Source: Streptomyces sp. BK340 (GTDB taxonomy: Bacteria > Actinomycetota > Actinomycetes > Streptomycetales > Streptomycetaceae). Taken from it: 64,000 nucleotides of DNA. The number at the start of each line of letters is the position of its first letter. The first letter of the stretch is position 1. The stretch is from NCBI RefSeq assembly GCF_007827595.1, contig NZ_VISR01000001.1, positions 496,001 through 560,000 on the forward strand. The letters run 5' to 3'. The notes beneath the pieces are model-generated. The model did not search any database, was not told the origin of the DNA, and saw nothing but the letters and a program-made list of their open reading frames with translations. A program made the translations under genes and the position numbers. Below are positions 45,352 to 50,453 of this stretch, piece after piece.

Positions 45352-47274
45352 GTGCAGTCACAGGATGTAGCCCAGCGTCACGCACCCTCCTCCGCCGGGG
45401 CCACCGGCCCGGTCGTCGACGTCGAACAGGCCGAGGCAGCGCTCGTCGAGCACTACCCACGGCTGGTCCGGCTCGCCCACCTGGTGCTGCCGCCGGCCCT
45501 CGGCCGCAGCCGCCGGGTACTGACGGCCCACGCACTGGTCCAGCGCGCCCTGCCCCGGGGCCGCAAGCAGACGTCCGTGATCCCGGCCCAGTCCACGGGC
45601 CGGGAGGGCGACCCCGGGTACGCGTTCCTGCGGCTGCGGGTCCTGCGTGCGGCGCTGGAGGCGGCCCGCCCCCGCAAGGGCCTGCCGCGGCTCTCCCAGC
45701 TGCCGCCGCTGCTCCCCCAGGTGTGGGGACTGCGCCTGTTCCCGCGCTCCGGCGGCGCCGACGAGCTGGCCCTGGACCAGCGGCTGTCCACCCTGTCCGG
45801 CCCGGCCCGTGCCGCCTACGGGCTGCGCGGCCTGGAGAAGCTGCCCGACGCGGACATCCGCAGGATCCTCAAGTCCGCCGGGGTCGACCGTCCCGAGTCC
45901 GCACTGGCGGAGGCCAACGGGGTACCCGCGCAGGACGCCCTGCTCGCCTCCCCCGAGTTCGACCCCTGCTGTCTGCAGGCCCGCCCCACCGACCTGATGC
46001 GCCGCCGCCAGCACACCAAGGCCGCGCTCGCCGCGGCGGCCGCGCTCGCGGTGTGCGGGGCGCTGGTGGCCATGCCGGGCGGCGGCTGGGGTCCCGACGG
46101 CGCCGCCGCACCCGTCTACGCGGAGAACCCGGCGGCCGAGGCCGCCCTGGACCCCGGCAAGCTCACCCGCGTCGCCCCGACCGCGTGGGAGTCGGCGGCC
46201 CGCGACGACTTCTCCGTGTGGCCCGCGCGCGGCCCCCTCACCGGCGACGAGGCCCTGCTGCGCCGCGCCCTCGCCGTCTGGGCCCGGCCCGGAGAGACGG
46301 TCCGCGTCTCCGCCACCCCCGGCACCCAGACCGGCGCCCCGGCCGGCCCGCCCCAGCTGCTGTACGCGGGCGAGGTGGACAACGCGCGCGTGGCGGTCCT
46401 CTACGACGGCCTGCGCATCGTCCGCTACGCCGAGCCCACGGACGGCACCGCGGGCGCCGCCCTCGACTTCGCCCGCGTCGACGGCGCGACCGGCGCCGAG
46501 GCGAGCGTGCTGGTGCTCGGCCGCTCCGACGGCAACGTCCGTTATCTGATCGCCCCTTGGGTGAAGAAGGCCGCCGAGCGGGACCTGACGAAGCCGGCCG
46601 CGGCCGCGGCACCCCTCACCGTCAGCGACGGCGTCACCACACCGATGGCCAGCTCCGCCCTGCAGCCCGGCAGCTGCACCTCGTGGCACGTGCTCCAGCT
46701 GACCGACGCCTCCGGCACTCGGCTCGCCACGGACCTCGGTGAGCTGGTCCCGGTCCACCTCACCGCCGGACGTCCGGGCGCCACGGGTGAGGCGTCCGGC
46801 GCGGAGGGCCTGCGCGCCTGGGCGCCGTTCGCCTGCTCGCTCTCCGCGGAGCGATCCGCGGGGGTGCGCAGCGTCAACGCCTGGGCGTTCGCGAGCCAGC
46901 CGTTGCCCGACGGGAGCGGGGCGGCCGAGTGGGTGTGCACCAGGGCCGAGACCTGGCGCGGCGACGGTACGGCCGCAATGGCCCAGTTCCGGACCCCGGG
47001 CGGGCCGGTCGGCGCTGTCGTGGCCAAGGGCACGGACCCACGGTCCTGCGGTCCGCGCGACCCGCATGTGCTGGCCGGGGTGCTGTGGAAGTCCCGTGCC
47101 GGGAACTGGTACCTGCTGGCCGCGGGCAGCCAGGACACCGCGTCGATCCGGGCGACGGGCGGGGTCACCGCGTCCGGTCCGGGACCGCTGCTGGTGGCCC
47201 GGGCCGAACAGGGGGCGCAGGCACAGCTGAAGGGAACCCTGAAGGACGGCCGGCAGGTCGGCGGACTGCGCTAG
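45352..47274 (+). CDS. Sigma-like/membrane fusion protein with large extracytoplasmic domain
   Basis: 640 residues. The N-terminal 225 residues are cytoplasmic and sigma-factor-like: VEQAEAALVEHYPRLVRLAHLV resembles region 2, and LSGPARAAYGLRGLEKL resembles region 4, though the recognition helix is eroded. One transmembrane helix (KAALAAAAALAVCGALVAM) follows, then about 390 extracytoplasmic residues with several Cys and no recognised enzyme motif. It looks like a fusion of a degenerate ECF sigma module to a secreted sensor domain. GTG 45352 start; ribosome site weak. Function unknown. Confidence 0.7.
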   Translation: MQSQDVAQRHAPSSAGATGPVVDVEQAEAALVEHYPRLVRLAHLVLPPALGRSRRVLTAHALVQRALPRGRKQTSVIPAQSTGREGDPGYAFLRLRVLRAALEAARPRKGLPRLSQLPPLLPQVWGLRLFPRSGGADELALDQRLSTLSGPARAAYGLRGLEKLPDADIRRILKSAGVDRPESALAEANGVPAQDALLASPEFDPCCLQARPTDLMRRRQHTKAALAAAAALAVCGALVAMPGGGWGPDGAAAPVYAENPAAEAALDPGKLTRVAPTAWESAARDDFSVWPARGPLTGDEALLRRALAVWARPGETVRVSATPGTQTGAPAGPPQLLYAGEVDNARVAVLYDGLRIVRYAEPTDGTAGAALDFARVDGATGAEASVLVLGRSDGNVRYLIAPWVKKAAERDLTKPAAAAAPLTVSDGVTTPMASSALQPGSCTSWHVLQLTDASGTRLATDLGELVPVHLTAGRPGATGEASGAEGLRAWAPFACSLSAERSAGVRSVNAWAFASQPLPDGSGAAEWVCTRAETWRGDGTAAMAQFRTPGGPVGAVVAKGTDPRSCGPRDPHVLAGVLWKSRAGNWYLLAAGSQDTASIRATGGVTASGPGPLLVARAEQGAQAQLKGTLKDGRQVGGLR

Positions 47275-47343
47275 CTGACACTCGCGTCAACAAGGTGCCG
47301 CACGGGGGTTCTCAGATGACCTACCCGTCAGTACATTGACGCC

Positions 47344-48270
47344 ATGTCTAACACGCAGGCCCGGCCGGTGGAGTCCGAGCGCATACCGCTCAAGGCCCGC
47401 AACGTGTCCTTCTCCTGGGAGGACACACCGCTGCACTGGGTGCCCGGCGACCCGTTCACCACGCACACAATCAACGTGCTGCACCTGCTGCTGCCCGCCG
47501 GCGAGCGGTGGTTCGTGCATGTGTACAAGCAGGTGCTGCCGCTCATCCGGGACGACCGGCTCCGCGAGGACGTCGTCGGTTTCATCGGGCAGGAGGCGAT
47601 GCACTCCCAGGCCCATGACGAGGTCCTGCCGCATCTGAGGGAGCAGGGGCTCGACCCGACGCCGTACACCGCGCAGGTCGACTGGTTCTTCGAGAAGCTG
47701 CTCGGCGACCGCACTCCCCCACTGCTCAACGCGTGGGTGGTACCCCCATCGCCGGGCAGGGCGCGCCGCTGGTGGCTGCTGGAGCGGGTCGCGCTGATCG
47801 CGGCCATCGAGCACTACACCGCCTTCCTCGGCGACTGGGTGCTCAACGCCGCCGAACTGGACCGGCGCGGCGCCGACCCGACCATGCTGGACCTGCTGCG
47901 CTGGCACGGTGCCGAGGAGGTCGAGCACCGCTCCGTCGCCTTCGACCTGTTCATGCATGTCGACGGCAGCTACCGGCGCCGGGTGCGCACCTGGGCGACG
48001 GCCTTCAGCGCGCTGGTGTTCCTGTGGCAGCGCGGGACCCGCTTCTTCATGGAGAACGACCCCACCCTGGTGGACGGCAAGGCCTCCTTCAAGGAGTTCC
48101 ACCGGAGCGGCCGCCGGGGCACCCTGCCCACGACCGGTGCCATGCTCAGGTCCATCCCGCGCTACCTGAGCCACGCCTACCACCCCTCCCAGGAAGGCTC
48201 CACCGCCCAGGCGGTGGCCTACCTGGCCTCCTCCCCCGCCGCGCTCGCGGCCGAAAAGACAGGGTCGTGA
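47344..48270 (+). CDS. Metal-dependent hydrolase family (PF10118-like) with a complete ferritin-like diiron signature
   Basis: 308 residues, mostly helical. Usually labelled 'predicted metal-dependent hydrolase'. The residues fit a four-helix diiron site: Glu54 (AGERWF), E84-x2-H87 (GQEAMHSQAH), Glu156 (AAIEHYTAF) and E192-x2-H195 (AEEVEHRSVAFD). This is the pattern of diiron oxygenases and oxidases, so an O2-dependent oxidation is more likely than hydrolysis. Its stop codon overlaps the start of a flavin/2Fe-2S reductase gene, the expected electron donor. A TetR gene follows. Confidence 0.8.
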   Translation: MSNTQARPVESERIPLKARNVSFSWEDTPLHWVPGDPFTTHTINVLHLLLPAGERWFVHVYKQVLPLIRDDRLREDVVGFIGQEAMHSQAHDEVLPHLREQGLDPTPYTAQVDWFFEKLLGDRTPPLLNAWVVPPSPGRARRWWLLERVALIAAIEHYTAFLGDWVLNAAELDRRGADPTMLDLLRWHGAEEVEHRSVAFDLFMHVDGSYRRRVRTWATAFSALVFLWQRGTRFFMENDPTLVDGKASFKEFHRSGRRGTLPTTGAMLRSIPRYLSHAYHPSQEGSTAQAVAYLASSPAALAAEKTGS

Positions 48271-49319
48271 TGCCGAAGCTGCGCACCGTCGCGCTCGTCG
48301 CGGGCGCCGCCCTGCTGACCCGGCGGGCCCTGCGCCGCCGCGTCCGGGTCTCGCCGCTGTGGCCGCTGCCCGCGCTGGACCCGCCTGTCTCCGGCCGCCC
48401 CCGCTCGCGGGCGCTGCGGCTGCTGCTCACCGGGCACGAGACGGTCGCCGACGGGGTCGTGCAACTGCGCCTGGAAGGCGGCGGATTGCCGCGCTGGGAG
48501 CCCGGCGCACATCTCGACCTGGTGCTGCCGTCGGGGCTCGTACGGCAGTACTCGCTGTGCGGGGACCCGGAGGACGGGTCCTCCTACACGGTGGCCACCC
48601 GGCTGGTCGAGGGCGGCCGGGGTGGCTCGCGCGAGGTGCACGAGCAGCTCACCGAGGGCATGGAGCTGGAGGTGCGCGGGCCGAGGAACCGTTTCCCGCT
48701 GGTCGAGGCCCCCTCGTACGTCTTCGTCGCCGGCGGCATCGGCATCACACCGGTCCTGCCCATGCTGCGGGCCCTGCCGGACGGCACGGACTGGCGGCTG
48801 CTGTACGGCGGGCGGACGCGGGCCTCGATGCCGTTCCTGGAGGAGGTGCGGGGGCTCGCCGGGGACCGGCTGACGCTGGTCGCCGAGGACGAGGACGGAC
48901 GGCCGGACCTGGAGGCGCTGTTCGCGGGTGTTCCGGAGGGGACCGCCGTCTACTGCTGTGGCCCGGAGGGCCTGATGGAGGCGGTGGAGGCACGGCTGCC
49001 CGAGGGTGCCACGCTGCACCTGGAGCGGTTCGCGCCGCGCACGTCGGCCGACGGCAACCACGCGTTCGAGGTGGAGCTGCGGCGCACCGGACGGACGTTG
49101 CCGGTCCCCGCGGGCTCCACCGTGCTGGCCGCCGTGCGCCGCGCACTGCCCGACACCGCCTACTCCTGCGAGCAGGGCTTCTGCGGGACCTGCCAACAGC
49201 GGGTGGTCGAGGGCGAGGTGGACCACCGGGACGAGCTGCTGACGGATGCGGAGCGTACCGACTCGATGCTCATCTGTGTGTCACGGGCCATAAGTGAGCG
49301 ACTTGTGCTGGACATGTGA
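48270..49319 (+). CDS. Phthalate-dioxygenase-reductase-type oxidoreductase (FMN/NAD/2Fe-2S)
   Basis: 349 residues. A short N-terminal hydrophobic segment (LRTVALVAGAALLTRRALRR) may associate with the membrane. The flavin domain has RQYSLCGDPEDG, the NAD domain has VAGGIGITPVLPMLRAL and YCCGPEGLM, and the C-terminal plant-type ferredoxin domain has CEQGFCGTC plus a distal Cys (MLICVS). It passes electrons from NAD(P)H through FMN to a 2Fe-2S centre. Its ATG overlaps the upstream stop codon by one base, so it is translationally coupled to the diiron protein, its likely acceptor. Confidence 0.9.
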   Translation: MPKLRTVALVAGAALLTRRALRRRVRVSPLWPLPALDPPVSGRPRSRALRLLLTGHETVADGVVQLRLEGGGLPRWEPGAHLDLVLPSGLVRQYSLCGDPEDGSSYTVATRLVEGGRGGSREVHEQLTEGMELEVRGPRNRFPLVEAPSYVFVAGGIGITPVLPMLRALPDGTDWRLLYGGRTRASMPFLEEVRGLAGDRLTLVAEDEDGRPDLEALFAGVPEGTAVYCCGPEGLMEAVEARLPEGATLHLERFAPRTSADGNHAFEVELRRTGRTLPVPAGSTVLAAVRRALPDTAYSCEQGFCGTCQQRVVEGEVDHRDELLTDAERTDSMLICVSRAISERLVLDM

Positions 49320-49387: not shown

Positions 49388-50077
49388 ATGAGTACCGGGG
49401 TTCGCCGCAGGATGGGCGTAGAGGAGCGGCGGCAGCAGCTGATCGGTGTCGCACTCGACCTGTTCAGCCGCCGTTCGCCCGACGAGGTCTCGATCGACGA
49501 GATAGCGTCGGCGGCGGGCATCTCGCGCCCGCTCGTCTATCACTACTTTCCCGGCAAACTCAGCCTGTACGAGGCCGCGTTGAAGCGCGCCTCGGAGGAT
49601 CTGTCGGCCCGCTTCGCGGAGCCGCACGAGGGTTCGCTCGGCGCCCGGCTGCTGCGCGTGATGCGCCGCTTCTTCGACTTCGTGGACGAGCACGGGCCCG
49701 GCTTCTCGGCTCTGATGCGCGGCGGCCCGGCCGTCGGCTCCTCGACGACCAACGCCCTCATCGACTCCGTACGGCAGGCCGCCTACGAGCAGATCCTGGC
49801 GCATCTGGGCGTCACCGAGGCATCCCCGCGCATGGAACTGGTCGTCCGCTCCTGGATCTCGCTCGCCGAGTCGACGGCGCTGATCTGGCTGGACGGCCGC
49901 CGCATCCCGCGCGCCGAGCTGGAGCTGCAGCTCGTGCACGACTTCGCCGCCCTGACGGCGGTGAGCGCCGCCTACGACACGGACATGGCCGCCCTGCTGC
50001 GCACCATGGCCGAGGACGAGCCGGCCGACGGGCCCTTCGCGGAGCTCGTCGGCCGGCTGCTGTTCCTGGCGCCCTGA
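49388..50077 (+). CDS. TetR-family regulator
   Basis: 229 residues. N-terminal helix-turn-helix: RRQQLIGVALDLFSRRSPDEVSIDEIASAAGISRPLVYHYFPGK, with the usual YHYF recognition end. The C-terminal ligand/dimer domain is variable. It lies 68 bases after the oxidoreductase gene, same direction, so it may control the diiron/reductase pair in response to a lipid or hydrophobic substrate. That link is inference. Confidence 0.9.
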   Translation: MSTGVRRRMGVEERRQQLIGVALDLFSRRSPDEVSIDEIASAAGISRPLVYHYFPGKLSLYEAALKRASEDLSARFAEPHEGSLGARLLRVMRRFFDFVDEHGPGFSALMRGGPAVGSSTTNALIDSVRQAAYEQILAHLGVTEASPRMELVVRSWISLAESTALIWLDGRRIPRAELELQLVHDFAALTAVSAAYDTDMAALLRTMAEDEPADGPFAELVGRLLFLAP

Positions 50078-50090
50078 GGAGCGCGGACCG

Positions 50091-50453
50091 CTACCGGTCG
50101 AACTTCCGGTACGACGGATCCAGGTCGCGGATCTCGGCGGAGGCGTGCAGGGCGAAGCGCTTGTCCGCCACATGCCCCCGGAGCAGCTCCAGCACGGTCT
50201 CCGTGAGCCTCGCCTTCGTCTCGTCGCTGCGGCCGGCGAGGAGCCCGATGGTCACGTGCACGATGGCGTGCCCGTGCTCCGCCGGGTCCTCGTACCCGTA
50301 CGCCGTGAGTGCGCCCGGCCGGAACTGCGTCTTGCAGGCCTCCGGCTTGGCCGCCGCGATCTCCACGGTCGCCTCGTGCAGCGCCCGTGCGAAACCGGCG
50401 CGGTCGAAGGCGGCCTCCATCGTGTTCGAGTAGTCGACGGTGATCTGCGGCAT
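50091..50453 (-). CDS. 5-carboxymethyl-2-hydroxymuconate isomerase-like (tautomerase superfamily)
   Basis: 120 residues, about the family length. It starts MPQITVDYSN, leaving Pro1 as the catalytic base after Met removal. HGHAIVHVTIGLLAGRSDETKARLTETVLEL and ALHASAEIRDLDPSYRK match the CHMI/HpaF pattern. No homoprotocatechuate pathway genes surround it, so the substrate may differ. Convergent with the TetR gene, 13 bases apart. Confidence 0.8.
   Translation of the reverse strand: MPQITVDYSNTMEAAFDRAGFARALHEATVEIAAAKPEACKTQFRPGALTAYGYEDPAEHGHAIVHVTIGLLAGRSDETKARLTETVLELLRGHVADKRFALHASAEIRDLDPSYRKFDR

Follow-up and report, generated by a model that had tools for sequence, protein, structure and literature searches.

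A PF10118 "metal-dependent hydrolase" gene of Streptomyces sp. BK340 probably encodes a diiron oxygenase served by the reductase of the overlapping gene

The locus described here raises the question of why a gene annotated for a metal-dependent hydrolase overlaps a gene for an electron-transfer reductase. In a stretch of 64,000 nucleotides from Streptomyces sp. BK340 (contig NZ_VISR01000001.1, positions 496,001 to 560,000; hereafter the window), three genes follow each other on the forward strand: a PF10118 gene (47344–48270, +), a reductase gene (48270–49319, +), and a TetR-family regulator gene (49388–50077, +). The 308-residue PF10118 protein bears the name "predicted metal-dependent hydrolase" and is read here as a diiron oxygenase from its Pfam match, its AlphaFold2 (AF2) model, and its fold matches. 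The ATG of the reductase gene borrows the A of the PF10118 TGA stop codon, giving a one-base overlap. A sequence-only reading of this DNA had described this stop/start overlap with a flavin mononucleotide (FMN)/NAD/2Fe-2S reductase, followed by a TetR gene, with correct coordinates and frames. We propose, with a probability of roughly 0.7, that the overlapping genes encode a two-component oxygenase, in which a diiron protein would oxidize, and most likely epoxidize, a fatty chain with electrons fed by the reductase; the proposal draws on sequence comparison and structure prediction. The G+C content of the window is 68–74%, and the closest homologues of the PF10118 protein, among the matches listed by protein search, are from Streptomyces. 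The source genome (10.3 Mb, 84 contigs) has a single PF10118 gene, and PF10118 was found in 13 of 246 genomes sampled across the phylum and in 71 of 101 sampled across the genus Streptomyces.

The PF10118 protein matched the Pfam family Metal_hydrol (PF10118) with an E-value of 5e-77 and 259.4 bits against a gathering cut-off of 33.2. Conservation was assessed in two alignments, with identities to the window protein as low as about 23%. The first contained 361 rows, namely the window protein and 360 proteins taken as the best 120 matches from each of three protein searches, and for that reason it leans to Streptomyces and Nocardia/Mycobacterium. The second, more diverse set contained 104 rows (98 different) from loci of several clades. 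A further 80 related loci, analyzed below for gene order, were not counted for ligand conservation because they had been retrieved with a peptide pattern from a ligand helix. Glu54, Glu84, His87, His91, Glu156, Trp187, His188, Glu191, Glu192, Glu194, and His195 were invariant in 361/361 rows of the first alignment. In the second, E54, E84, H87, H91, and E156 were kept in 104/104 rows, and H188, E191, E192, and H195 in 103/104, the exception being a truncated row that ends before the helix.

The predicted ligands are spread over four long helices of the AF2 model, agreement being at the level of helices: Glu54 (codon 47503–47505, +) on helix 37–67, E84xxH87 (47593–47604, +) on helix 71–92, Glu156 (47809–47811, +) on helix 137–167, and H188-xx-E191-E192-x-E194-H195 (47905–47928, +; 361/361 and 103/104 rows) on helix 179–206. 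The invariant His91 (47614–47616, +) also lies on helix 71–92. This Glu, ExxH, Glu, ExxH arrangement on four helices is that of ferritin-like diiron carboxylate proteins. The sequence-only reading had placed Glu54, Glu84, His87, Glu156, Glu192, and His195 correctly on successive predicted helices, and the Glu/His set was kept in every full-length homologue aligned; its description of these six residues as the complete ligand pattern was too narrow, however, since His91, His188, and Glu191 are equally invariant. A threonine occurs three (243 sequences) or four (118 sequences) residues past Glu156 in each of the 361 sequences, at residues 159–160 in the window protein. A threonine near the diiron site is known in monooxygenases and desaturases, which the residue after Glu156 recalls.

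The third histidine, His188, lies within H-xx-E-E-xx-H, and its spacing equals that in AurF-family (PF11583) proteins of Streptomyces (11/11 rows). It is nevertheless very unlikely that the protein is an AurF/CmlI-like N-oxygenase that converts an amine to a nitro group. Amine-biosynthesis genes were not conspicuous in the annotated loci inspected, the Pfam AurF profile matched at best one of 82 PF10118 members, with an E-value of 0.15, and profile–profile comparison of PF10118 with AurF (hhalign) was insignificant (Prob 0.5% and 0.2%). Because the last result also counts against the AurF connection that we draw ourselves, we claim likeness to AurF and not membership. Three PF11583 matches, that is, AurF homologues, are present on other contigs of the source genome.

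The AF2 model of the PF10118 protein had a predicted local distance difference test score (pLDDT) of 92.4 and a predicted template modeling score (pTM) of 0.90, and it forms a helical bundle with the topology of ribonucleotide reductase R2, the methane monooxygenase hydroxylase (MMOH), and AurF. In both structural comparisons (50 rows each), diiron carboxylate proteins filled the best rows, with R2 and R2lox at the head and MMOH and toluene 4-monooxygenase (T4MO) also among them. Against this, the best Foldseek E-value was 0.011, with none below 0.001, and the Z-scores of the second comparison are easily reached by helical bundles. Searches of PDB sequences with the protein alone and with two family profiles gave only weak, unrelated matches, and the fold link therefore depends on the predicted structure. 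Taken with the ligand pattern, the model supports an oxygenase-like rather than a hydrolase-like protein.

The 349-residue product of the second gene is a reductase of the type of phthalate dioxygenase reductase (PDR) and VanB, with flavin, NAD(P), and C-terminal plant-type 2Fe-2S domains in that order. Pfam matches were obtained for Fer2 (E 1.9e-13) and NAD_binding_1 (E 1.7e-07), and the flavin domain remained below its own cut-off (E 0.073). Cys300, Cys305, Cys308, and Cys336 of the 2Fe-2S motif (49167–49277, +) were read from the sequence and agree with the Fer2 match. The best PDB matches were the P450 fusion proteins 6laa and 6kbh, which we take to be CYP116B, a ferredoxin-named reductase (7ylr), and phthalate dioxygenase reductase (2pia). 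These alignments begin at residues 40–69, that with 2pia at about residue 49. The N-terminal extension of about 45 residues (48270–48410), which phthalate dioxygenase reductase lacks, is short, hydrophobic, and then basic here. Several epoxide-hydrolase-linked relatives have a DLYGR...DR motif in this extension, which is possibly a docking or membrane element.

The linkage of the two genes was surveyed by tblastn in the 80 related loci, of which 79 are titled Streptomyces and one Microtetraspora and some end at contig edges. The TetR neighbor was present in 77/80. Taking the nearest in-frame start, the reductase gene reaches into the PF10118 gene by 1 nt in 40 loci and by 4 nt in 9, so that the genes overlap in 49/80, and it begins between −10 and +60 nt of the stop in 78/80. 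In a tree of 104 proteins, whose rows were labeled by gene presence in the fetched locus, the window protein falls inside a 37-row clade with support of 99/95, in which one place occurs twice (L033, L158). Of the rows with a reductase in this clade, 21 have the reductase only and 14 also an epoxide-hydrolase-like gene; of the remaining two, one has only the epoxide-hydrolase-like gene and one, a truncated copy, neither. At 24 clade loci, the reductase gene is on the same strand, 170–325 nt from the PF10118 match, or 1.1–2.0 kb away with hydrolase/SDR (short-chain dehydrogenase/reductase) genes between. The adjacency on which the sequence-only reading had built thus holds for the related loci (80/80) and the window's clade (35/37 rows), but other PF10118 clades are without such a reductase.

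These counts bear on two other explanations. If the annotation were correct, the conserved Glu/His set would activate water in a metal-dependent hydrolase. We regard this as most improbable: ligand pattern and predicted fold are those of diiron carboxylate oxidases, and a hydrolase needs no electrons, yet a reductase gene adjoins clade-wide and often overlaps. What speaks for hydrolysis is the family name, the annotations that repeat it, and a listing of a PF10118 group as "Prot_241" among candidate proteases in a 2022 lanthipeptide study (excerpt of PMC8960859), which apparently stems from that name. Alternatively, the protein could be of the R2lox- or ferritin-like Fe/Mn kind and sense oxidants or generate radicals, in which case the reductase would work with other partners. 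R2 and R2lox as top fold matches and the many PF10118 copies without a nearby reductase would fit; the positional coupling of the reductase over a whole clade, with frequent overlap, does not, and we consider this explanation improbable too. The sequence-only claim of a diiron oxygenase rather than a hydrolase is therefore supported by invariant ligands, diiron fold matches, and clade-wide reductase linkage.

The nature of the oxidation was approached through the neighbors of PF10118 genes in relatives. A second PF10118 type (type 2), 50–53% identical to the window's, occurs in about three of ten Streptomyces genomes. An EphD-like fusion of an alpha/beta hydrolase and an SDR (about 600 residues) directly adjoins the type-2 gene on the same strand in 12/12 loci sampled, and the order fusion–PF10118–MerR was found in 8/8. 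In the 101 Streptomyces genomes, which hold 90 PF10118 copies, 30 copies, from 29 genomes, are no more than 300 nt away from the fusion and one more is 2.4 kb away; the others are more distant or on different contigs, for which a contig end is perhaps the reason in at least one genome (G258). The source genome encodes its fusion on contig C5 (87791–89557). Among five genomes without a type-2 gene, the source genome included, MerR directly follows the fusion in four; in the fifth, MerR gave no match. In the source genome (L263:4615–7540, contig C5), the fusion stands directly before MerR, and type-2 loci hold PF10118 exactly between the two. A third kind of Streptomyces locus, represented by L158 and L268, has oxygenase and reductase together with the hydrolase or the fusion.

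In mycobacterial-type genomes, PF10118 was found in 57/60, with up to 12 copies; two of them (G385 and G358; loci L164 and L184, respectively) have 10–12 copies, some in tandem pairs. We sampled 40 main-clade regions, nearly all on large contigs, from about 115 matches listed above 198 bits. A reductase was linked at 20/40, and 8 of these 20 also had a hydrolase; four of the eight add an SDR in the order oxygenase–hydrolase–SDR–reductase. One of the 20 had an SDR and no hydrolase, and one of the 40 an SDR only. Twenty control regions, drawn from mycobacterial-type genomes only and shifted by 300 kb on the same chromosomes, matched none of the four proteins. Among 13 other loci, three had a reductase, two a reductase and a hydrolase, one a hydrolase, and one a fusion. 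Consecutive fusion, PF10118, reductase, and TetR genes were found on a Dietzia plasmid, PF10118–reductase–fusion on an Embleya plasmid, and fusion–PF10118 on a Burkholderia plasmid. On a plasmid of Acinetobacter KCTC 92772, the PF10118 gene overlaps an alpha/beta hydrolase gene, and a Rhodococcus plasmid carries genes for an acyl-CoA ligase, an aldehyde dehydrogenase, PF10118, the reductase, an FAD (flavin adenine dinucleotide)-dependent oxidoreductase, and an SDR.

HGxP, (G/A)HDxG, and YRxN motifs mark epoxide hydrolases. All three, with an Asp nucleophile, were present in 24/24 hydrolase domains of these neighbors, with one lid Tyr only; Asp nucleophile, HGxP, lid Tyr, and the SDR domain together make the neighbor in relatives EphD-like. 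For one hydrolase domain, the 18 best PDB matches, which cover its N-terminal half, are named epoxide hydrolases (EphA best), and dehalogenases and esterases rank below them. The NCBIfam model NF004514 extends across both fusions that were tested; of the mycobacterial-type hydrolase and SDR, which are separate proteins, each matches one half of this model. Mycobacterium tuberculosis EphD shares the hydrolase–SDR layout, and 9,10-epoxystearate is opened by its N-terminal domain, which also alters epoxymycolates; the excerpt of the source (PMC7998700) states that the precise role of EphD and its two domains is undetermined.

An epoxide is our best guess for the product because the epoxide hydrolase neighbor recurs. 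A fatty acyl diiron desaturase or hydroxylase is the strongest competitor, though the less likely one: it would yield a double bond or an alcohol instead, and a task other than epoxide opening would fall to the linked alpha/beta hydrolase. Acyl-ACP (acyl carrier protein) desaturases show the same pair of ExxH motifs and depend on a reductase chain, and the lipid-type gene neighborhoods and a distantly FasR-like regulator suit such an enzyme; the absence of acyl-ACP desaturases from the best 50 rows of either structural comparison excludes nothing. A desaturase or hydroxylase fits all the evidence except one item, the recurring neighbor of epoxide-hydrolase type, and this breadth of fit itself weighs against epoxidation.

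Other observations also weigh against the proposed epoxidation pathway. The fusion is present in 96/101 Streptomyces genomes, 25 of which have no PF10118; genome-wide co-occurrence of PF10118 and EphD-like genes is thus uninformative and was dropped as evidence, and only position counts. An EphD-like gene was found at 0/80 related loci, the window's included, its fusion being encoded elsewhere in the genome, and a reductase at 0/12 type-2 loci, so that the chain is joined through relatives having both. No linked reductase, hydrolase, or SDR was seen at 19/40 mycobacterial-type main-clade loci and 15/15 low-scoring loci, nor any linked partner at 6/13 other loci. Outside the window's clade, the tree has 21, 25, and 4 rows with neither gene (two large PF10118 clades lack both reductase and hydrolase), besides 15 rows with a hydrolase only and two with a reductase only. 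Finally, the catalytic-acid pattern matched the hydrolase domains non-uniformly, NCBIfam haloalkane dehalogenase models matched one hydrolase below their cut-offs, and an Asp nucleophile also occurs in alpha/beta hydrolases that are dehalogenases.

In the proposed two-component oxygenase, Glu54, E84xxH87, Glu156, His188, and E192xxH195 would hold two irons. Electrons would pass from NAD(P)H to flavin and 2Fe-2S and singly to the diiron site, which in its diferrous state would take up O2 and activate it to a peroxo or high-valent species, so that one oxygen atom enters an unsaturated lipid. The hydrolase domain of the EphD-like fusion encoded elsewhere could then open the epoxide to a diol, and its SDR domain could oxidize the resulting alcohol to a ketone or hydroxyketone. 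The substrate class is suggested partly by PA0830, which, from its place beside oruR, we presume to be a PF10118 gene. In the excerpt of PMC5736630 it is tabulated as up-regulated (16.9) at a hexadecane interface, together with alkB2, a flavin monooxygenase, and an acyl-CoA dehydrogenase. This up-regulation and the gene company of relatives point to a lipid or hydrocarbon substrate. The sequence-only notion of a self-sufficient O2-dependent system is supported as regards oxygenase and reductase, but "self-sufficient" was too strong, since relatives have an epoxide hydrolase and an SDR in addition and the source genome encodes an EphD-like fusion at another place.

The TetR-family regulator (TetR_C_46) is closely related to the solved TetR protein 2qib (408 bits) and matches FasR only weakly (73 bits against a cut-off of 330); it probably senses the lipid substrate or product. 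Directly 5′ of the PF10118 ATG lies an element conserved in related loci, CGTCAGTACATTGACG-cc (47326–47343, +), with a −10-like TACATT inside. The sequence TACATTGACnCCATG occurs in 66/80 related loci, with near variants in the six exceptions inspected, and a perfect CGTCA-N6-TGACG palindrome in 37/80. The element's only exact copy in the source genome is the one before the PF10118 gene. A Shine-Dalgarno sequence was not seen between TACATT and the ATG, and with the −10-like hexamer so near the start codon a leaderless transcript is suggested. The element is thus a possible leaderless promoter and/or operator, and the palindrome may be a TetR operator. Upstream on the same strand lies an open reading frame (ORF) of 640 residues without a Pfam match (45352–47274), and downstream a small convergent gene (50091–50453) whose product matches 5-carboxymethyl-2-hydroxymuconate isomerase (PF02962).

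The PF10118 family is large, with at least 4,707, 5,796, and 3,362 significant matches in three overlapping protein searches, and in the open-access literature we found no published biochemistry on its proteins. The name "metal-dependent hydrolase" steers work toward hydrolysis or proteolysis. If the diiron reading is right, PF10118 genes become candidates for oxidizing C–H or C=C bonds in the metabolism of lipids, hydrocarbons, and the envelope, and the EphD link offers a testable substrate class, the epoxy lipids that EphD opens (excerpt of PMC7998700). More speculatively, PF10118 could be an unrecognized family of lipid epoxygenases whose diiron site has three histidines in the manner of AurF. 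With a PDR-type reductase and an EphD-type enzyme, these proteins would form an actinobacterial epoxidize–open–oxidize cassette for fatty chains; EphD-type enzymes would find in them their missing oxygen donors, and candidate makers of mycobacterial epoxy-lipids would be among them.

Among known systems, mycobacterial EphD has the two-domain layout of the neighbors in the Streptomyces type-2, Dietzia, Embleya, and Burkholderia loci; the excerpt of PMC7998700 mentions no oxygenase partner, and the window's PF10118 gene has no fusion next to it. AurF/CmlI (PF11583) and PF10118 have the third histidine in HxxEExxH in common, but PF10118 has no detectable sequence homology to them and adds the invariant His91, a PDR-type reductase gene, and lipid-type neighbors in relatives. 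R2 and R2lox, the best fold matches, likewise have ExxH pairs on two helices, and PF10118 differs from them by the third histidine on helix 179–206 and by its reductase partner gene. Similar to methane monooxygenase and T4MO, the window system would combine a diiron hydroxylase with a flavin/2Fe-2S reductase; however, it has one oxygenase gene, its PDR-type reductase carries the 2Fe-2S domain C-terminally, and no effector or beta subunit was found among the six window ORFs scanned with Pfam, the scope of that search. Phthalate dioxygenase reductase and the CYP116B reductase domain share with the window's reductase the flavin–NAD–2Fe-2S order over a long alignment, whereas the partner here is PF10118 instead of a Rieske oxygenase or a P450, and the N-terminal extension is additional. 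A diiron oxygenase with a reductase is thus of a known kind, and what is new here is the ligand set, the reductase subtype, and, probably, the epoxide-processing partner.
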